From positions 1 to 40,984 of the forward strand of contig QAIB01000021.1 in assembly GCA_030418545.1 (NCBI GenBank): a stretch of DNA of 40,984 nucleotides, in the 5' to 3' direction. The position numbers and the translations under genes were made by a program. The notes below the pieces were generated by a model. It was not told where the DNA came from. It ran no database searches and worked only from the letters and a program-made list of their open reading frames with translations. This DNA is from Xenophilus aerolatus. GTDB lineage: Bacteria > Pseudomonadota > Gammaproteobacteria > Burkholderiales > Burkholderiaceae_C. Positions 22,065-30,309 of the stretch are shown here, one piece after another (the first letter of the stretch is position 1; each line of letters begins with the position of its first letter).

Positions 22065-23093
22065 TTATGAGGTGGCGCGCGCCGCGGTCGACGCGCGCAC
22101 CACCAGCTCCGGCCGCAGCACCACCGTGGACGCCGACAGCGACTTGCCCTCGATCTCGTCGAAGAGCATCTCGGCCGCCCGCCAGCCCAGTTCGCGGTGC
22201 GGCAGGCGGATGGTGGTGAGGGGAGGATCGACCATGTCCACCAGCGGCATGTCGTTGTGGCCGGTGATGGAAAGGTCCTGCGGCACCCGCAGCCCGGCCT
22301 CGCGCAGCACGTCGTAGGCGCCCAGCGCCACCAGGTCGTTGCAGCACACCACCGCCTCGGGGCGCGGCCCGCTGGCCAGCAGGGTGCGCATGGCCTCGCG
22401 GCCGGCCTCGCGGCTGTAGCTCTCGCACTCGACGACGCGCGGGGGCTTGAGGCGATGGTCGTGCATGGCCTGCTCCACGCCCTGGCGGCGGCCCACGCCG
22501 GTGGGCACGTTCTGCGGCCCGGCCAGGTGCGCGATGCGGCGATGGCCCAGGGCCGCGAGGTGGTCGACCGCGAGCTTCATCGCCAGGCGGTCGTCGCTCA
22601 CCGCTGCGGGCAGGCGGCCGCTCTCGTCGGCGCGGTTGACCATCACCGCATGCAGGCCGTTGTCGCGCACGAAATCGATCAGCGGGTCGTCGCGCAGCGC
22701 GATGGCCATGACCAGCCCGTCGATCTGCTGCGCCTGCATGCGCGCGAGGATGGGCCGCGCGAGCTGCGGGTCGCCCACATTGGCCACGAAGACGAAATAG
22801 CCGCGCGCCGCCGCGCTGGCCTCGATGCCCTGCAGGATGGGCGGGAACACCGGGTTGGTGATGTCCGGCACCAGCACGCCGATGGTGTGGGTGCGCCCGG
22901 TGCGCAGCGCCGAGGCGGCGCGGTTCGGCTGGTAGCCCAGGCGGCGCGCCGTCTCTTCCACCAGTTCGAGCACCTCCTTGCTGATGCGCTTGCGCCGTGC
23001 CGGATCGAGCGCGCGCGACACGGTGGAGAAGTGCACCCCGCTCGCCGTCGCGACGTCGCGGATGGTGACTTTGGGGCTCTTCGCGGGCTTCAT
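22065..23093 (-). CDS. LacI-family transcriptional repressor
   Basis: This 342-residue protein has an N-terminal LacI helix-turn-helix: VTIRDVATASGVHFSTVSRAL (9-29 as continuous helices) and the hinge region GYQPNRAASALRTGRT. The effector domain is of the periplasmic-binding type: IGVLVPDITNPVFPPILQGIE, RRIAHLAGPQNVPTG and ITGHNDMPLVDMVDPPLTT. The ATG at 23093 gives the usual ~9-residue arm; an ATG further upstream is open but would run through the operator. It is divergent from the dioxygenase gene, with two LacI-type operators between them. The inducer is unknown, probably an aromatic acid or a pathway product. Confidence 0.93.
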   Translation of the reverse strand: MKPAKSPKVTIRDVATASGVHFSTVSRALDPARRKRISKEVLELVEETARRLGYQPNRAASALRTGRTHTIGVLVPDITNPVFPPILQGIEASAAARGYFVFVANVGDPQLARPILARMQAQQIDGLVMAIALRDDPLIDFVRDNGLHAVMVNRADESGRLPAAVSDDRLAMKLAVDHLAALGHRRIAHLAGPQNVPTGVGRRQGVEQAMHDHRLKPPRVVECESYSREAGREAMRTLLASGPRPEAVVCCNDLVALGAYDVLREAGLRVPQDLSITGHNDMPLVDMVDPPLTTIRLPHRELGWRAAEMLFDEIEGKSLSASTVVLRPELVVRASTAARATS

Positions 23094-23097
23094 CTGT

Positions 23098-23109
23098 GCA
23101 ACCGTTTGT
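23098..23109. promoter_or_regulatory. LacI-type operator O2 (imperfect)
   Basis: GCAACCGTTTGT matches the palindrome GCAAACGTTTGC of the upstream site at 10 of 12 positions. It lies 5 bases before the repressor's own ATG, so binding there could give autoregulation. Centre-to-centre spacing to the other operator is 91 bp. Confidence 0.6.
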
Positions 23110-23125
23110 CCAACTTTTACAGGCC

Positions 23126-23131
23126 TGTCAA
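23126..23131 (-). promoter_or_regulatory. Candidate -35 box of the LacI gene promoter
   Basis: The minus strand reads TTGACA, a perfect -35 hexamer, 33 bases before the repressor ATG. No good -10 is found; at a 17-base spacing it would be CAAACG, inside operator O2. Support therefore rests on the -35 and its position. Confidence 0.35.
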
Positions 23132-23156
23132 TAGGAACAATTCTGCCACCGTGGAC

Positions 23157-23186
23157 TTGCTTCCGCCGCACTCACAGACAAATAAT
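23157..23186 (+). promoter_or_regulatory. Candidate promoter of the dioxygenase operon
   Basis: TTGCTT (23157-23162) and AATAAT (23181-23186) are spaced by 18 bases. The -10 has five of six matches to TATAAT; the -35 has three. The LacI-type operator begins right after the -10 and so would cover the transcription start, a normal repressor layout. Confidence 0.5.
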
Positions 23187-23202
23187 GCGCAAACGTTTGC
23201 AC
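23187..23202. promoter_or_regulatory. LacI-type operator O1 (near-perfect palindrome)
   Basis: The core GCAAACGTTTGC (23189-23200) is a perfect 12-bp palindrome with a central CG, the hallmark of LacI-family sites. With one mismatch it extends outwards to TG...CA. It lies between the candidate -10 box and the GTG start of the dioxygenase gene, 96 bases from the divergent LacI gene. Confidence 0.8.
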
Positions 23203-23218
23203 AAACAGAGGTCCCACC

Positions 23219-24085
23219 GTGAACATCGTGACCACCCCCGATTCGGTGCTCGGCATCGCGCTCGACGCGATGGAGCGCACGCCCGACCCCCGCCTGCGCG
23301 AGGTGATGGCCTCGCTCACTCGCCACCTGCACGCATTCGTGCAGGAGGTGAAGCTGAGCGAGGACGAGTTCGAGCACGCGCTGGACTTCATCGTGGCGCT
23401 GGGCCAGGCCACCGGCGAGAAGAAGAACGAGGTGGTGCTGGCGGCGGACATCCTCGGCATCTCCACGGTGGTGGCGCTCCAGAACAACCAGGACCCGGAA
23501 GGCGAGTCGCCGTCCGCCCTGCTCGGCCCCTTCTGGCGCGCCAACGCGCCCGACTGCGCCTGCGGCGACTCCATCGCGCGCTCGGGCACGCCGGGCGTGC
23601 CGCTCTTCGTCTCCGGCACGGTGCGCAACGCGGCTGGCCAGCCGCTGGCCGACGCCGTGGTCGACGTGTGGCAGGCCTCGCCCGTGGGCCTGTACGAGAA
23701 CCAGGACCCGACGCAGGAGAACATGAACCTGCGCGGGCGCTTCCGCACCGACGCCGAGGGCCGCTACCACTTCCGCAGCGTGCGCCCGGCCGGCTACCCC
23801 GTGCCGGTGGACGGGCCCTGCGGCGTGCTGCTCAAGGCCCAGCGCCGCCATCCCAACCGGCCGGCCCACCTGCACTTCATGGTGAGCAAGCCGGGCTTCA
23901 AGGTGCTGGTGAGCCAGGTCTACGCCGACGACGACGAGAACCTCGAGAGCGACCCGACCTTCGGCGTCACGCGCCGGCTGATCGGCAACTACGCGATGCA
24001 GCCCGACGGGCAGAGCGCGACGCTGGCCTACGACTTCCGGCTCGAACCGGGCGAGACCAAGTTCCCGCGGCCGCCCATTCCCTGA
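23219..24085 (+). CDS. Intradiol ring-cleavage dioxygenase (catechol/hydroxyquinol type)
   Basis: This 288-residue non-haem Fe(III) enzyme cleaves catechol-like rings between the two hydroxyls to give a muconate or maleylacetate. The N-terminal helical dimer domain (1-95) is that of catechol and hydroxyquinol 1,2-dioxygenases. LLGPFWR (101-107) leads into the catalytic domain. The four iron ligands are visible: Tyr159 (GLYENQ), Tyr193 (AGYPVP), His217 and His219 (RPAHLHF). Overall layout favours hydroxyquinol 1,2-dioxygenase, but the substrate is not proven. The GTG at 23219 lies behind an AGAGG-like site. It is the first gene of the LacI-controlled run. Confidence 0.92.
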   Translation: MNIVTTPDSVLGIALDAMERTPDPRLREVMASLTRHLHAFVQEVKLSEDEFEHALDFIVALGQATGEKKNEVVLAADILGISTVVALQNNQDPEGESPSALLGPFWRANAPDCACGDSIARSGTPGVPLFVSGTVRNAAGQPLADAVVDVWQASPVGLYENQDPTQENMNLRGRFRTDAEGRYHFRSVRPAGYPVPVDGPCGVLLKAQRRHPNRPAHLHFMVSKPGFKVLVSQVYADDDENLESDPTFGVTRRLIGNYAMQPDGQSATLAYDFRLEPGETKFPRPPIP

Positions 24086-24125
24086 TGCACCCCTTCTTCC
24101 ACTTCTCTCCATCGACTGCAAGACC

Positions 24126-24890
24126 ATGAGCTTCGACCCCGTTTCACGCCTGGACGGCCAGGTGGCCGTCATCACCGGCGGGCTGGGCGCCATCGGCTGG
24201 GCCAGCGCCGAGCGCCTGGCCGCCCTGGGCGCCACCTGCGTGCTGCTGCACCGCAAGGGCGACGACGCGCAGGCCCGCGCGTCCACCCTGCCCTCGGCCC
24301 AGGGCCAGCGCCACACCGCCCTGCGTGCCGACATCGTCGACAGCGCCAGCCTGCAGGCCGCCGCCGAGGCGGTGAAGGCCACGCGCGGCCGCTGCGACAT
24401 CCTGGTCAACAGCGCCGGCCACACGAAGCCCGTGCCCGCGGGCGACCTCGACGGCCTGACGGACGAGCTGATCGACGAGCTGCTGCGCGCCAACTTCCGC
24501 GGCGTGTTCGCCACCATCCGCGCCTTCGCACCGCTGCTCAAGGCCAGCGGCGACGGGCTGATCGTCAACGTGTCCTCGATCGCCGGCTTCACCGGCGTCG
24601 GCAGCAACCTCGCGTACGTCGCTGCCAAGGCCGGGCTGGACGTGGTGGGCGATGCGCTGGCCAAGGTGCTGGCGCCGCAGGTGCGCGTGGTGTCGGTCTC
24701 GCCGGGTGCGGTCGAGTCCGGCTTCGTGCCGGGCCGCGGCGAGGACTTCAGGAACAAGATGGCCAGCACGACGCCGCTGGGCCGCATCGGCCTGCCGCAG
24801 GACGTGGCGGCGACGGTCGAGGCGCTGGCGACCACGCTGCGCTTCGTCACCGGCACACGGATCGTGGTGGATGGAGGACGGCACCTATGA
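24126..24890 (+). CDS. Short-chain dehydrogenase/reductase
   Basis: This 254-residue classical SDR has the cofactor motif TGGLGAIG (17-24), NSAG in the middle, INVSS-like VNVSSIAG with the catalytic serine, and YVAAK (YxxxK). The C-terminus GTRIVVDGGRHL is standard. It oxidises or reduces a hydroxyl/keto group with NAD(P). It lies 40 bp after the dioxygenase gene and is probably co-transcribed. Its place in a ring-cleavage pathway could be preparation of the diol or reduction of a later keto intermediate; the sequence does not tell. Confidence 0.93.
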   Translation: MSFDPVSRLDGQVAVITGGLGAIGWASAERLAALGATCVLLHRKGDDAQARASTLPSAQGQRHTALRADIVDSASLQAAAEAVKATRGRCDILVNSAGHTKPVPAGDLDGLTDELIDELLRANFRGVFATIRAFAPLLKASGDGLIVNVSSIAGFTGVGSNLAYVAAKAGLDVVGDALAKVLAPQVRVVSVSPGAVESGFVPGRGEDFRNKMASTTPLGRIGLPQDVAATVEALATTLRFVTGTRIVVDGGRHL

Positions 24891-24969
24891 GCGCCGCATG
24901 GCCGCCCAAAGGCGCGAGCGCCCCCTCGGGGGGCAGCGCAGTGCACGAAGTGACAAGCGTGGGAGTCCA
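24891..24969. repeat. Intergenic repeat with GC stem-loop inside the operon
   Basis: The 79 bp between the SDR and BKACE genes hold GCCCCC-TCG-GGGGGC (24920-24934), a 6-bp GC hairpin within a longer sequence ending GCACGAAGTGACAAGCGTGGGAG. I recognise this wording as a frequent Comamonadaceae intergenic repeat. It may weaken read-through or stabilise the upstream mRNA part. Confidence 0.5.
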
Positions 24970-25857
24970 ATGAACAAGACGCTCATCACCTGTGCCGTCA
25001 CGGGCAACCTCGTGAAGCCCGAGCAGACCCCGCACCTGCCCATCACCCCCACGCAGATCGCCGACGAATGCCTGGCGGCGGCCGAGGCGGGTGCGGGCCA
25101 GGTGCACATCCATGTGCGCGACCCCGGCACCGGCAAGCCCTCGATGGAGGTCGAGCTGTATCGCGAGGTGGTCGATCGCATCCGCCGCCACGACCGTGAG
25201 CTGATCGTGAACCTCACGACCGGCCCGGGCGGTCGCTTCATCCCGAGCGAGGACGACCCCAAGGTCTACGCGCCCGGCACCTCGCTGCTGCCGCCCGAGC
25301 GCCGTGTGGAGCACATCGCGCTCATCAAGCCGGATGTCTGCTCGCTGGACCTCAACACCATGAACAGCGGCCCCGACGTCGTGATGAACACGCCGAAGAA
25401 CGTGCGCCGCATGGCCAAGGTGATCCGCGAGGCCGGCGTGAAGCCCGAGCTGGAGATCTTCGACTCCGGCGACATCAACCTGGCGCTGGACCTGATCGCC
25501 GACGGCACGCTCGACGGCCCCGGCATGTGGACCTTCGTGCTGGGCGTGAAGTACGGCTTCGCGCCCACGCCCGAGACGCTGCTCTACGCCCGCAACATGC
25601 TGCCGCGGGGCGCCTTCTGGAGCGCCTTCGGCATCGGCCGCATGGAGTTCCCCATCGTCGCGCAGGCCTGGCTGATGGGCGGGCATGTGCGCGTGGGCAT
25701 GGAAGACAACATCTACCTGTCGCACGGCGTTCTGGCCGAGAGCAACGCGCAGCTGGTGGCCAAGGCACGCGACATCATCCGCAGCCTGGGCGGCCAGGTG
25801 GCCAGCGCCGCCGAGGCGCGCCAGAGGCTGAACCTGCCGGCCGGAGGTGCGCGATGA
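24970..25857 (+). CDS. Beta-keto acid cleavage enzyme (BKACE, DUF849)
   Basis: This 295-residue TIM-barrel zinc enzyme belongs to the BKACE family, which splits a beta-keto acid with acetyl-CoA into acetoacetate and a new acyl-CoA. Seen are ITCAVTGNLVKPEQTPHLP at the start, AGAGQVHIHVRDP with zinc ligands His46 and His48, NLTTGPGG, LEIFDSGDI and GGHVRVGMEDN with Glu245. Length is as usual. The ATG at 24970 directly starts the family's first strand. The next gene overlaps by 4 bp. Next to a ring-cleavage dioxygenase the natural substrate could be 3-oxoadipate or a relative; this is inference. Confidence 0.93.
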   Translation: MNKTLITCAVTGNLVKPEQTPHLPITPTQIADECLAAAEAGAGQVHIHVRDPGTGKPSMEVELYREVVDRIRRHDRELIVNLTTGPGGRFIPSEDDPKVYAPGTSLLPPERRVEHIALIKPDVCSLDLNTMNSGPDVVMNTPKNVRRMAKVIREAGVKPELEIFDSGDINLALDLIADGTLDGPGMWTFVLGVKYGFAPTPETLLYARNMLPRGAFWSAFGIGRMEFPIVAQAWLMGGHVRVGMEDNIYLSHGVLAESNAQLVAKARDIIRSLGGQVASAAEARQRLNLPAGGAR

Positions 25858-26852
25858 ACGGGGCCACGAACGGCACCGCCGCACGCGCCCTGCGCGTGGA
25901 GCAGAAGGCGGCGGACCTCGCAGCACTGCAGCTTGCCATCGCCCAACAGCCGCAGCCCGAGGCGCCGGCCGGCCATGCCGTGGTGCGCGTCGGCGCCGCC
26001 GCGGTGAACCCCAGCGACGTGAAGGCGACGCTGGGCCTCATGCCCAAGGCCGTGTGGCCGCGCACGCCGGGCCGCGACTTCGCGGGCACGGTGGTCGCGG
26101 GGCCGAGCGCCTGGATCGGGCGCGAGGTCTACGGCTCCGGCGGCGACGTGGGCATCACCCGCGACGGCTCGCACGCGCGCTACCTGGTGCTGCCCGAGGC
26201 CGCGTTGCGCGAGCGGCCGCGCAACATCTCGATGGACGAGGCCGGTGCCGTGGGCGTGCCCTTCGTCACCGCCTACGAGGGCTTCCGCCGCAGCGGCATG
26301 CCGCAGGCCGGGCAGACCGTGCTCGTGCTGGGCGGCAACGGCAAGGTGGGCCAGGCCGCGGTGCAGCTGGCGGCGCAGGCGGGCGCGAAGGTGATCGCCG
26401 TGCAACGGCGCGCCGGCCCCTTCGAGGGCTTCGCCTGCGCGCCGGTCGAGGTGGTCGATGCGCGCAGCGAAGACGTGGCGGCCAGGGTGCTCGAGCTCAC
26501 CAACGGCCGCGGCGCCGACGTGGTCTACAACACCGTCGGCAGCGCCTACTTCGAAGCGGCCAACAAGGCCATGGCCAAGGGGGCGACGCAGATCTTCATC
26601 GCCACGCACGACCGCGCGGTGCCCTTCGACATCTTCGCCTTCTACCGCGGCATGCACACGTACGTGGGCATCGATTCGCTGGCCATGGACTGCATCGCGT
26701 CGACCGCGCAGCTCGATGCGATGCGCGAAGGCTTCGAGCGCGGCACCCTGAAACCCTTCCCGGTGGCGCGCCACTTCACGCTTGACGAAGCGCTGGACGC
26801 CTACCGGCTGGTGCTCTCGGGCAGCACCGACCGCGTGGTGCTGCGGCCCTGA
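25854..26852 (+). CDS. Medium-chain dehydrogenase/reductase, quinone oxidoreductase-like
   Basis: This 332-residue protein has the GroES-like N-terminal domain (VRVGAAAVNPSDVKATLG, TPGRDFAGTVVAG) and a Rossmann domain with VLVLGGNGKVGQAAVQLAAQAG. The catalytic-zinc cysteine/histidine set of alcohol dehydrogenases is not seen, so it is of the zinc-free quinone-reductase or enoyl-reductase type and probably uses NADPH. The start overlaps the BKACE stop (ATGA) and is preceded by GGAGG. It could reduce an unsaturated pathway intermediate such as a maleylacetate-like acid, although classical maleylacetate reductases belong to another family. Confidence 0.9.
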   Translation: MNGATNGTAARALRVEQKAADLAALQLAIAQQPQPEAPAGHAVVRVGAAAVNPSDVKATLGLMPKAVWPRTPGRDFAGTVVAGPSAWIGREVYGSGGDVGITRDGSHARYLVLPEAALRERPRNISMDEAGAVGVPFVTAYEGFRRSGMPQAGQTVLVLGGNGKVGQAAVQLAAQAGAKVIAVQRRAGPFEGFACAPVEVVDARSEDVAARVLELTNGRGADVVYNTVGSAYFEAANKAMAKGATQIFIATHDRAVPFDIFAFYRGMHTYVGIDSLAMDCIASTAQLDAMREGFERGTLKPFPVARHFTLDEALDAYRLVLSGSTDRVVLRP

Positions 26853-26870
26853 GCGCTAAAGGAGGCTGCC

Positions 26871-27236
26871 ATGCACGTCACCCGATTCGACCAGGCGCCC
26901 ACTTACGAGGCGCCGCGCCACTTCGACATGCGCTGTCTGCGCCTGCAGGGCAAGGAGGCCGGCCCGTCCGAGCAGATGTGGATGGGCATGAGCCAGATCC
27001 TGCCCGGCGGACACACCGGCCTGGACGGCTCGCCGATGGAGAAGCTGTACCTCGTGCTCGAAGGCCGGCTCACCGTCATCGGCGAGCTGGACGGCCACAC
27101 CGAGGAGCAGGAGCTCGGCCCCTACGACTCCTGCCGCTTCGCGCCGGGCGAGAAGCGGCAGCTGGTCAACCGCACGAACCGGCCCGTGCTGGTCGCGCTG
27201 GTGATGCCGCACGAGCCGCCGGCGCCCAAGGGCTGA
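26871..27236 (+). CDS. Cupin-domain protein
   Basis: This 121-residue single-domain cupin has GGHTGLDGSPMEKLYLVLEG as first motif and GPYDSCRFAPGEKRQLVN as the second. The usual two-histidine first motif is reduced here (one His, with Glu following), so metal binding is uncertain. An excellent AAAGGAGG site (26858-26865) precedes the ATG, 18 bp after the MDR gene. It may act on, or sense, an intermediate of the pathway; no specific reaction can be given. Confidence 0.85.
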   Translation: MHVTRFDQAPTYEAPRHFDMRCLRLQGKEAGPSEQMWMGMSQILPGGHTGLDGSPMEKLYLVLEGRLTVIGELDGHTEEQELGPYDSCRFAPGEKRQLVNRTNRPVLVALVMPHEPPAPKG

Positions 27237-27278
27237 CGGCCGCATCGATCCCACAGAACACACAAACGGAGACAAGAC

Positions 27279-28268
27279 ATGACATTCGCACCCCACCGCG
27301 GCCTCGGCCGCCGCCTCTTCGTCGCGGGCACGCTCGCGGCCCTCGCCATCGGCAGCGCGCACGCGCAGGGCGACTGGCCGCGGGGCCAGTCGATCCGCCT
27401 CATCGTGCCCTTCACCGCAGGCAGCGGCACCGACATCGTCGCGCGGCTCGTGGCCGAGCGCCTCGGCCCCGCCCTGCAGACCACCGTGGTGGTCGAGAAC
27501 AAGCCCGGCGCCGGCGGCACACTGGGTGCGGCGCAGGTGGCCAAGGCGCCGGCCGACGGCTACACGCTGCTGGTGCATTCGGCGGGGCACCTGGTCAACC
27601 CATCGATCTACCCCAACCTCTCCTACGACACGCTGAAGGACTTCGCCGGCATCACGCCGATGGCCAGCCTGCCCAACGTGCTGGTCACCTCGCCCGGCAA
27701 GTTCGCCGACGTGAAGGACCTGGTGGCGCAGGTCAAGGCCAAGCCGGGCGGGTTCAATTACGCATCGGCCGGCAACGGCTCGGCCACGCACATGAACGCC
27801 GAGGTGTTCCGCCTGGCGGCCGGCATCCAGGCGCAGCACGTGCCCTTCCGCGGCACGCCCGAGGCCATGACCGAGGTGATGGGCGGACGCATCGACTGGT
27901 TCTTCGCGCCGATGGTGTCGGCCCTGCCCCTCATCAAGGACGGCAAGCTCAAGGCCCTGGCCGTGGGCACCGGCAAGCGCTCTTCCGTGCAGCCCGACCT
28001 GCCGACGACGGTGGAGGCCGGCGTGCCCGGCTCCGAGTACCTGTTCTGGGTTGGCCTGTTCGCGCCCGCGAAGACGCCGAAGCCGGTGGTCGACCGCGTG
28101 CAGGCCGAGGTCGCGAAGATCATGGCCGCGCCCGACCTGAAGGACCGGCTGGACAAGCTGGGCGCCGAGCCCTTCACCATGCCGTCGGCGCAGTTCGACA
28201 AGTTCCTCGCCGACGAGACCGCGAAGAGCGCGCGCGTCGTCAAGGCTGCAGGCATCAAGGTCGACTGA
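27279..28268 (+). CDS. Bug-family (TTT) periplasmic substrate-binding protein
   Basis: This 329-residue tripartite tricarboxylate transport receptor has a signal peptide (RRLFVAGTLAALAIGSAHA, cleaved near residue 30) and the mature Bug landmarks IRLIVPFTAGSGTDIVAR, VVENKPGAGGTLGAAQVAK, ADGYTLLV, VPFRGTPEAMTEVMGG and FFAPMVSALPLIKDGK. Such proteins bind carboxylates, often aromatic acids, in the periplasm. No TctA/TctB membrane genes are present, which is common in Burkholderiales. It lies 42 bp after the cupin gene and 16 bp before the amidohydrolase, consistent with one transcription unit supplying the pathway's substrate. Confidence 0.95.
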   Translation: MTFAPHRGLGRRLFVAGTLAALAIGSAHAQGDWPRGQSIRLIVPFTAGSGTDIVARLVAERLGPALQTTVVVENKPGAGGTLGAAQVAKAPADGYTLLVHSAGHLVNPSIYPNLSYDTLKDFAGITPMASLPNVLVTSPGKFADVKDLVAQVKAKPGGFNYASAGNGSATHMNAEVFRLAAGIQAQHVPFRGTPEAMTEVMGGRIDWFFAPMVSALPLIKDGKLKALAVGTGKRSSVQPDLPTTVEAGVPGSEYLFWVGLFAPAKTPKPVVDRVQAEVAKIMAAPDLKDRLDKLGAEPFTMPSAQFDKFLADETAKSARVVKAAGIKVD

Positions 28269-28284: not shown

Positions 28285-30309
28285 ATGAAGCTCTTCGGAT
28301 CCACTCGCACCGAAGCCGGTGCAGCCGGCCGCTATCGTCATTGGTGCGACCCTGCCTGCATCCATCCGGAACCCGACGCCGCCGAGCCGCCGCGCCGGCA
28401 GTTCCTGCGCAGCTCGCTCGGCCTGGCCGCCGCCGGCGGCCTGGCAGGCTTCGGCCTGGCCGGCTGCGCCAGCACCGCGCCCAGCGGCCCCGCCGACACC
28501 GTGCTGCGCAACGTCCGCATCGCCACGCTGGACCCGAAGCGCCCACGCGCCGAAGCTCTGGCCATCGTCGGCACCGACTTTGTCGCCGTCGGCAGCGATG
28601 CCGACATGCAGCGCTGGATCGGCCCGCGCACCCGCGTCATCGACGCCCAGGGCCGCACCGTGGTGCCGGGGCTGATCGACTCGCACGCCCACTTCATCCG
28701 CGGCGGCCTGACCTACACGCAGGAGCTGCGCTGGGACGGCGTGCCCTCGCTGGCCGACGCGCTGGTGATGTTGCGCGACCAGGCGCGGCGCACGCAGCCG
28801 CCGCACTGGGTGCAGGTGGTGGGCGGCTTCTCGCCCTACCAGTTCCGCGAGAAGCGGCTGCCCACGCTGGCCGAGATCAACGACGCCACCGGCGAAGTGC
28901 CCTGCTTCGTGATGAACCTGTACGACCGCGCCTTTCTCAACCGCGCTGCCCTGCGCGTGCTGGGCTTCAACCGCGACACGCCCAACCCGATCGGCAGCGT
29001 GCTCGAGAAGGACGCGGCCGGCAACCCGACCGGCCTGGTCGTCAACACCACCAGCCTGGGCGGCCTGGTCGCACTGTTCGCGCGCGTGCCCAAGCTGCCC
29101 GACGCCGACCAGGCGCTGTCGACGCAGCTGTACATGCGCGAGATGAACCGCCTGGGCCTGACCAGCGTGGTCGACGCCGGTGGCGGCGGTCAGAACTACC
29201 CCGAGCACTACGCCGGCGTGGCGCAGCTCGCGGCCGAGCGAAAAATGACGCTGCGCATCTCGTACAACCTGTTCGCGCAGCGCCCGGGCCAGGAGCTGGC
29301 CGACTACCAGGCCTGGTCGCAGAAGGTCGCGCCGGGCCAGGGCGACGACTGGCTGCGCATGGTGGGCGCGGGCGAATACATCCTCTGGGCCGCGACGGAC
29401 CCGGCCAACTTCGGCAAGAGCGTCGCGCCGGCGCCGGCCATCATGGAAAGCAAGCTCACCGAGGTGGCCACCTACCTGGTCGGCAAGGGCTGGCCGATCC
29501 GCATGCATGCCAGCTACGACAGCACCGCCACGCGCATCCTCGACGTGCTCGAGAAGGTGAACCGCGAGGTGCCGCTCAAGAACGTGCGCTGGGCGCTCGA
29601 CCACTGCGAGACGCTGTCGCCGCGCTCGATGGAACGCGTGGCCGCCATGGGCGGGCGCATCGCGATCCAGAACCGCATGTCGCTGGACGGCGAGGTCTTC
29701 GCCCAGACCTGGGGCCGCGAGGCCGCGGCCGACGCGCCCGCCATCGGGCGCATGCGTGCCATGGGCCTGCCCGTGGCCTGCGGCACCGACTCCAGCCGCG
29801 CCACCAGCTACAACCCCTGGGTGTCGCTGCATTGGCTGATCACCGGCAAGACCATGGGCGACACCCGCCTGAACGCCGAGCGCAACCTGGTGAGCCGCGA
29901 GGACGCGCTGCGCATGTGGACCGTGGAAGGCGCCGCGCTCACCGGCGAAGAGGCCCGCAAGGGCAGCATCCAGCCCGGCCGGCTGGCCGACTTCGCGCTG
30001 CTGTCGGACGACTACTTCGCCGTGCCCGAGGACGACATCAAGGACATCACGGCGCTGCTCACGGTGGTGGGCGGCCAGGTGGTGCACGGCGCCGGCGCCT
30101 TCGCGGCGCAGGCGCCGGCGGCGGTGAAGCCCATGCCCGACTGGCTGCCCGTGAACATCTACGGCGGCTACCAGCAGCGGCGCAAGAGCGGCGTGGCGCA
30201 GGCGCCCGCGGCGCACGGCGGCGGATGCTGCGCCGGGCCGGGGGCGGCGCCGATCATCATCGGGGACCAGGGGCAGTGGCGGATGAGTTGCGGGTGCGCG
30301 ATGGTGTGA
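28285..30309 (+). CDS. Amidohydrolase (YtcJ-like, amidohydrolase 3 family) with Cys-rich ends
   Basis: This 674-residue protein has a metal-dependent amidohydrolase core: VVPGLIDSHAHFIRGG with the HxH metal site, IRMHASYDSTATRILD, ALDHCETLSP, GTDSSRATSYNPW and GSIQPGRLADFALLS. The N-terminus is odd: about 36 residues with Cys21 and Cys25 precede a Tat-like RRQFLRSS (37-44) and a lipobox LAGC (Cys61). The C-terminal tail holds Cys648, Cys649, Cys669 and Cys671. It is probably exported. The ATG at 28285 lies 16 bp after the Bug gene. The last 53 bp overlap the end of the AraC-type gene on the other strand. Substrate unknown; it could hydrolyse an amide or ester precursor. Confidence 0.85.
   Translation: MKLFGSTRTEAGAAGRYRHWCDPACIHPEPDAAEPPRRQFLRSSLGLAAAGGLAGFGLAGCASTAPSGPADTVLRNVRIATLDPKRPRAEALAIVGTDFVAVGSDADMQRWIGPRTRVIDAQGRTVVPGLIDSHAHFIRGGLTYTQELRWDGVPSLADALVMLRDQARRTQPPHWVQVVGGFSPYQFREKRLPTLAEINDATGEVPCFVMNLYDRAFLNRAALRVLGFNRDTPNPIGSVLEKDAAGNPTGLVVNTTSLGGLVALFARVPKLPDADQALSTQLYMREMNRLGLTSVVDAGGGGQNYPEHYAGVAQLAAERKMTLRISYNLFAQRPGQELADYQAWSQKVAPGQGDDWLRMVGAGEYILWAATDPANFGKSVAPAPAIMESKLTEVATYLVGKGWPIRMHASYDSTATRILDVLEKVNREVPLKNVRWALDHCETLSPRSMERVAAMGGRIAIQNRMSLDGEVFAQTWGREAAADAPAIGRMRAMGLPVACGTDSSRATSYNPWVSLHWLITGKTMGDTRLNAERNLVSREDALRMWTVEGAALTGEEARKGSIQPGRLADFALLSDDYFAVPEDDIKDITALLTVVGGQVVHGAGAFAAQAPAAVKPMPDWLPVNIYGGYQQRRKSGVAQAPAAHGGGCCAGPGAAPIIIGDQGQWRMSCGCAMV

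Follow-up and report, generated by a model that had tools for sequence, protein, structure and literature searches.

In the hydroxyquinol pathway, hydroxyquinol is cleaved to maleylacetate, and the pathway combines hydroxyquinol 1,2-dioxygenase, a Fe-type maleylacetate reductase and PcaIJ/PcaF. The general idea that an enzyme of the beta-keto acid cleavage enzyme family (BKACE, DUF849) acts on 3-oxoadipate is already published as a proposal for other gene sets: a BKACE acting on beta-ketoadipate and replacing PcaIJ was proposed both for a catechol cluster of R. eutropha H16 (PMC6449761) and for pca clusters of Methylobacterium (PMC8963497). NCBIfam also has a named model for 3-oxoadipate:acetyl-CoA acetyltransferase (NF053568). 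Here, a gene run with an intradiol dioxygenase and a BKACE is described from Xenophilus aerolatus (assembly GCA_030418545.1, 5.84 Mb in 47 contigs). It lies on contig QAIB01000021.1 (C13 in our numbering), the whole of which, 40,984 nucleotides, was analysed and is hereafter called the window. The run may well encode a lower pathway, controlled by LacI, in which a hydroxyquinol-type ring is degraded and the BKACE acts last, although our confidence in this falls slightly short of even. No published description of its five-gene core was found in literature searches of openly licensed papers.

On the + strand from position 23219, the genes for the intradiol dioxygenase, a short-chain dehydrogenase/reductase (SDR), the BKACE, an MDR-family oxidoreductase, a cupin and a Bug solute-binding protein (23219-28268) were followed by an amidohydrolase gene, as listed below.

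22065..23171, - strand: LacI-family regulator (PF00356 and PF13377), transcribed away from the operon; start codon at either 23171 or 23093

23187..23202, between the LacI gene and the dioxygenase gene: LacI-type palindrome GCGCAAACGTTTGCAC, likely operator; the palindrome type recurs in relatives

23219..24085, + strand: intradiol dioxygenase (DIOX), hydroxyquinol-1,2-dioxygenase-like (PF04444 and PF00775); start GTG

24126..24890, + strand: SDR (PF13561), found in 47/48 dioxygenase-linked loci

24891..24969, + strand: GC-rich insert of about 80 bp between the SDR and BKACE genes, variable among close relatives

24970..25857, + strand: BKACE (PF05853, 330.7 bits against a cut-off of 24.8, E 8.6e-99)

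25854..26852, + strand: MDR-family oxidoreductase, quinone/enone reductase-like (PF00107, PF08240; TIGR02824 below cut-off), candidate C=C reductase

26871..27236, + strand: small single-domain cupin (PF07883, 27.1 bits, just below the cut-off of 27.2)

27279..28268, + strand: Bug/TctC periplasmic solute-binding protein (PF03401), accessory; downstream in 40/48 dioxygenase-linked loci

28285..30309, + strand: Amidohydro_3 family hydrolase (PF07969, 357.6 bits) with a Tat-like leader (TAT_signal 21.3 bits, below the cut-off of 22.7), accessory, lineage-variable

The intergenic gaps from dioxygenase to SDR, SDR to BKACE, BKACE to MDR, MDR to cupin and cupin to Bug were 40, 79, -4, 18 and 42 bp, respectively, with the MDR gene overlapping the BKACE stop, and the amidohydrolase gene starts 16 bp past the Bug gene. 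A single transcript is therefore likely; a scan of the run for promoters and terminators added nothing to this. The preliminary description of this DNA had placed the six genes from dioxygenase to Bug in one closely spaced run, and all of them were found at their place and strand; since their order recurs in other genomes, the linkage is not due to chance.

The genes, their order, their conservation and the residues named below were read directly from the data. For the estimation of conservation, 64 loci were scored, namely 41 loci of dioxygenase relatives in public genomes, 13 loci from genomes with a close BKACE and, from a phylum sample, the 10 highest-ranking BKACE loci; the set was partly selected for BKACE or dioxygenase, and its counts are biased to that extent. 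A BKACE of at least 54% identity was present in 51 of the 64 loci, with a dioxygenase upstream in 48 of the 51. The SDR, MDR, cupin and Bug genes were found in 47, 47, 46 and 40 of these 48 dioxygenase-linked loci, respectively, and the module DIOX-SDR-BKACE-MDR-cupin was complete, on one strand and in the same order, in 46. The exceptions were L043, where the contig ends, and L045, which is without SDR and cupin and whose dioxygenase match is split over two frames. A less biased count was obtained from a family sample of 399 genomes, in which adjacency was judged by eye and dioxygenases scoring worse than E 1e-60 would escape detection. The dioxygenase was present in 95 and the BKACE in 33 of these genomes (both at E <= 1e-60), and the two genes adjoined in 17/17 genomes with a BKACE of at least 61% identity and in 0/16 with a weaker one. 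In an order sample of 399 genomes, a match was found in 8, and only the window's own exceeded 55% identity. In a phylum sample of 378 genomes, the whole module in the same order was carried by three of the six best BKACE matches after the window's own (L186, L187 and L189, labelled as the same phylum but outside the window's class); it was not carried by the remaining three (L185, L188 and L190).

A divergent LacI gene adjoins the dioxygenase gene in 39 loci, and a GCA..CG..TGC palindrome was present in 39/39 of them versus 0.09 expected from base shuffles, the palindrome criterion having been fixed only after initial inspection of the sequences. The dioxygenase and the BKACE belong to a conserved module, which probably makes up one LacI-controlled unit.

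In the dioxygenase, both the N and C intradiol domains are present, and all four residues that bind Fe (Y159, Y193, H217 and H219) are conserved. Its nearest solved structures are hydroxyquinol-type dioxygenases (best PnpC 3n9t, E 1.2e-61), and it scored below the catechol/chlorocatechol models (TIGR02439, 153.1 against 392 bits; TIGR02465, 157.9 against 359.25 bits). The position of Asp77 is Asp in all five solved relatives aligned; we take it to be Asp83 of 1TMX, and we assume that it is not Asp in catechol dioxygenases. When the pocket of the 1TMX hydroxyquinol dioxygenase (HQD) is taken, in our assumed list and numbering, as Leu80, Asp83, Val107, Phe108, Phe111, Ile199, Arg218 and Val251, the Leu, the Asp, Phe111 and the Arg are kept, with Val107Leu, Phe108Leu, Ile199Val and Val251Thr changed. 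Asp77 was found in 43/43 readable BKACE-linked rows (3 unreadable) and in 3/3 loci outside the class, and the 29 unlinked rows showed 21 Gly, 6 Asp and 2 unreadable residues. On a tree of 66 rows, one clade (support 97/91) was made up of 43 BKACE-linked rows together with the unlinked L044, where the contig ends, and L166, and a neighbouring clade of 18 rows had Gly77 and Gln247 throughout, with no BKACE within the stretches examined. L037, L045-L049, L051, L053 and L054 (fragments, contig end, or contig shared with another row) were left out of the tree, and the duplicate loci L076-L134 were left out of both the tree and the dioxygenase residue counts. The BKACE pairing and the kept Asp co-occur but were inherited inside one clade, and therefore they count as one event. 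The active-site residues favour a hydroxyquinol-type ring. In the surroundings of the unlinked dioxygenases, 20 neighbour proteins were scanned; FAA hydrolase, TctAB, DctM/DctQ, shikimate dehydrogenase and dehydroquinase were among them and no Fe-type alcohol dehydrogenase (Fe-ADH) was. A gene homologous to the maleylacetate reductase of the window's genome (cluster c129) does occur in the outgroup locus L148. The sister dioxygenase clade (L149-L165), with Gly and Gln at the two pocket positions, is adjoined in single loci by FAA hydrolase, shikimate dehydrogenase, dehydroquinase or TctAB, and perhaps represents a separate hydroaromatic pathway.

The metal ligands H46, H48 and E245 of the BKACE are invariant in a 14-row alignment and match His48, His50 and Glu247 of BsfD (PDB 9ZSC), its closest solved relative by sequence. 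BsfD is an enzyme of flavophos biosynthesis from a biosynthetic phosphonate cluster; according to PMC12871164, its Phe166 replaces a Tyr said to be universal in BKACEs, and its Arg91, on an inserted loop, lies near the phosphonate. Phe164 and Arg89 of the window BKACE correspond to these two residues. Phe was found in 106/106 BKACE rows (78 dioxygenase-linked, 28 unlinked; overlapping loci were counted more than once, here and at position 89), so the active-site Tyr said in that source to be universal seems not to define the family. Two of the loci with Phe, L071 and L073, have the BKACE gene adjoining genes that score above the cut-off of NF005471, the model for L-carnitine dehydrogenase (683 and 577 against 414 bits, respectively). 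BKACEs in this setting are presumably cleaving dehydrocarnitine; Phe therefore does not separate cleavage from non-cleavage, and the change from Tyr to Phe alone may be insufficient to explain the different chemistry of BsfD. Phe164 as proof of BsfD-like chemistry was rejected on the same ground. The blast cluster that contains the L-carnitine dehydrogenase of L071 and L073 also has members in L074 and L075.

At position 89, Arg was found in 78/78 dioxygenase-linked rows, whereas the 28 unlinked rows held 14 Asp, 6 Arg and 8 other residues or gaps. The Asp89 rows include both carnitine-linked loci tested, which thus share the family and Phe164 with the window BKACE and differ from it in this residue and in their carnitine neighbours; their expected substrate is cationic, whereas Arg fits an anion. 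In Table 7 of PMC4922564, too, DUF849 groups are divided by substrate charge: a subgroup of G3 is assigned beta-ketoadipate, and G4 has the negatively charged substrates. The conserved Arg favours an anionic beta-keto acid as substrate, and the Asp of the dioxygenase and the Arg of the BKACE both fit a 3-oxo-dicarboxylate arising from hydroxyquinol-type cleavage. The AF2 (AlphaFold2) model of the BKACE was good overall, at pLDDT 84.8, except in the loop carrying Arg89. A BKACE-family gene is likewise tied to intradiol cleavage in the NF053568 type and in the COG3246/DUF849 genes of cat/pca clusters (PMC6449761, PMC8963497), but the window BKACE falls outside that model and its neighbours (SDR, MDR, cupin and LacI) differ.

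From these genes we infer the following substrates, products and steps. Hydroxyquinol or a near relative would be cleaved by the dioxygenase to 3-hydroxymuconate/maleylacetate, the enone double bond would be reduced by the MDR to give 3-oxoadipate in replacement of the Fe-type maleylacetate reductase, and 3-oxoadipate and acetyl-CoA would be converted by the BKACE to acetoacetate and succinyl-CoA. Acetoacetate and succinyl-CoA could then be converted to acetoacetyl-CoA by a CoA-transferase of the pcaI/scoA family, genes for which were present in 17/17 module genomes, so that the BKACE and the CoA-transferase together would achieve what PcaIJ and PcaF do. Compared with the hydroxyquinol pathway, the HQD-type Asp and the Fe ligands are the same, but no CoA-transferase (5 genome matches), Fe-ADH (3) or thiolase (11) was found on the window contig, and the run carries the MDR and BKACE genes instead. 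The contig carries no gene for a Fe-type maleylacetate reductase; the obvious candidate for reducing the C=C bond is the MDR, whose gene overlaps that of the BKACE. The MDR scored 98.2 bits with TIGR02824, below the cut-off of 296.8; its likeness to models of quinone and acrylyl-CoA reductases stays far short of every cut-off. The SDR is a candidate for, e.g., a quinone reductase or an upstream dehydrogenase, and the cupin for, e.g., an isomerase; the usual metal His is not conserved in the cupin alignment, and its AF2 model (mean pLDDT 93.3) had the TM1459 cupin as best Foldseek match. The Bug and amidohydrolase genes may serve substrate supply, differing between lineages. In wider terms, it is proposed tentatively, with doubt outweighing confidence, that the five-gene module is a widespread hydroxyquinol-type lower pathway in which the MDR replaces the Fe-type maleylacetate reductase and the BKACE replaces PcaIJ and PcaF, so that acetoacetate and succinyl-CoA would be formed directly from maleylacetate or 3-oxoadipate and the C6 acid itself would need no CoA-transferase. 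If this is true, a compact variant is added to the beta-ketoadipate pathway, a likely function is gained for the BKACE subgroup whose nearest solved structure is that of an enzyme of antibiotic synthesis, and genes of Variovorax and its relatives that now carry the name '3-keto-5-aminohexanoate cleavage protein' can be renamed.

Several observations weigh against this proposal. The genome encodes pcaIJF (C43:246432-249148) and a maleylacetate reductase homologue (C43 near 130,244; best match 3jzd, an unnamed Fe-ADH; best named matches 3w5s and 3hl0), and the module would therefore add a route and is not needed to fill a gap. The absence of PcaIJ- and PcaF-like genes, noted in the preliminary description, accordingly holds for the window contig and not for the genome, and the idea that a lack of PcaIJ/PcaF forced the BKACE into their role was rejected. 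PcaF was above cut-off in 14/17 module genomes, and with PcaIJF also encoded in the window's own genome, the wording 'in place of' CoA-transferase and thiolase is not supported; the PcaF match of G707 is split over two contig ends and not missing, and no PcaF above cut-off was found in G573 and G710, two small genomes. PcaF can be replaced by other thiolases (PMC12442348), and for this reason the lack in these two genomes, though fitting a stand-in, was not leaned on. The window BKACE fails NF053568 (171.7 against 350 bits), as do the module BKACEs of L141 and L187 (173.5 and 165.7 bits, respectively), and BsfD does not perform cleavage (PMC12871164). Arg89 sits in a loop with AF2 pLDDT <50 and also occurs in 6/28 unlinked BKACE rows, and Asp77 is not BKACE-bound, since it was found in 6/27 readable unlinked dioxygenase rows (L037, on a contig ending early, L044, L166, L052, L148 and L065, the last being the own genome's second dioxygenase). 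The MDR and SDR assignments are at family level only, and no hydroxyquinol-making monooxygenase was found in the run. On balance, the ortho-cleavage route via a BKACE that had been suggested for this locus is plausible and partly supported, with the conserved module and the fitting residues in its favour and its replacement wording and the NF053568 result against it.

The accessory genes vary by lineage and include Amidohydro_1, _2 and _3, RidA (L142, L146 and L147), molybdenum hydroxylase, permeases and binding proteins. An amidohydrolase homologue follows the Bug gene in Xenophilus, Pseudacidovorax and many Variovorax loci (mostly 35-38% identity in Variovorax). L135, L137 and L138 encode a molybdenum-hydroxylase large subunit close to the module (all in a single blast cluster, whose L138 member was scanned), and in L189 molybdenum-hydroxylase subunits adjoin it (L189:3343-5939); L140 encodes a xanthine/uracil-type permease, and both L140 and L142 encode NMT1/THI5-like binding proteins. 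A core that stays the same while the accessories change resembles a lower pathway with several feeders, but would also accommodate a ring that is substituted or contains nitrogen. The same module acting on such a ring, with the BKACE cleaving a substituted 3-oxo-dicarboxylate or a related beta-keto acid and not 3-oxoadipate itself, is in our estimation less likely than not. The molybdenum hydroxylase, RidA, amidohydrolases, permease and NMT1/THI5-like proteins hint at N-containing or carboxylated substrates, and Val251 of the HQD pocket is Thr247 in the window dioxygenase; however, both Thr (29 rows) and Val (17 rows) occur at 247 in BKACE-linked dioxygenases, and the constancy of the five core genes while the accessories vary suggests one common central intermediate. 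A different order of steps, in which the BKACE would act directly on maleylacetate to give acetoacetate and an enoyl-CoA (maleyl- or fumaryl-CoA) and the MDR would reduce the latter to succinyl-CoA, is improbable. It would suit the 4-bp overlap of the two genes in the window and the likeness of the MDR to quinone/acrylyl-CoA reductases, but we know of no BKACE taking an unsaturated beta-keto acid, and the step order is unreadable from sequence.

Two further explanations would detach the BKACE from 3-oxoadipate. By analogy with deoxyribonate catabolism (PMC6365646), the SDR and the BKACE might oxidise and cleave a beta-hydroxy acid, leaving the dioxygenase a separate function. The SDR gene adjoins the BKACE gene in both cases, although the substrate class is another and no dioxygenase is reported in PMC6365646. 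BKACEs of 55-67% identity without a dioxygenase in the fetched stretch (L185, L188 and L190) and a BKACE-SDR-MDR run in L191 are in keeping with it. Many LacI-type regulators sense sugars, which also points this way. Nevertheless, it is considered very improbable, because the dioxygenase gene opens the run and adjoins the close BKACE gene in all 17 family-sample genomes mentioned above. It is hardly to be expected, either, that the BKACE is a BsfD-like enzyme which acetylates its substrate without retro-Claisen cleavage, the operon then not being a 3-oxoadipate route: BsfD is the closest solved relative and shares the Phe (F164) and the Arg loop (R89), but the same Phe is found in BKACEs linked to L-carnitine dehydrogenase, from which cleavage is presumed, and is hence not diagnostic, and the gene setting here is catabolic.

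Some minor observations were made on relatives and on the locus itself. In L186, a second BKACE gene (L186:12835-13755) lies beyond the LacI gene of the module, next to a 3HCDH gene; with the model of 3,5-dioxohexanoate:acetyl-CoA acetone transferase its product scores 537.7 bits, above the cut-off of 430. The L191 run (L191:8158-10857), in which BKACE, SDR and MDR show 53, 36 and 28% identity, respectively, and which is without a dioxygenase, is possibly a cousin operon for another substrate. The own genome's second BKACE (C41 308169-309035, L062) is 32% identical and lies with 3HCDH, AMP-binding and branched-chain ABC transporter genes. The window dioxygenase was 100% identical to its homologue in Xenophilus sp. 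E41, as were the other nine window genes compared. The GC-rich palindromic element (24891-24969) makes up most of the 79-bp gap between the SDR and BKACE genes; among close relatives, across genera, it was present in L013, L018, L019 and L021 and absent in L014 and L017, and thus it seems to come and go.

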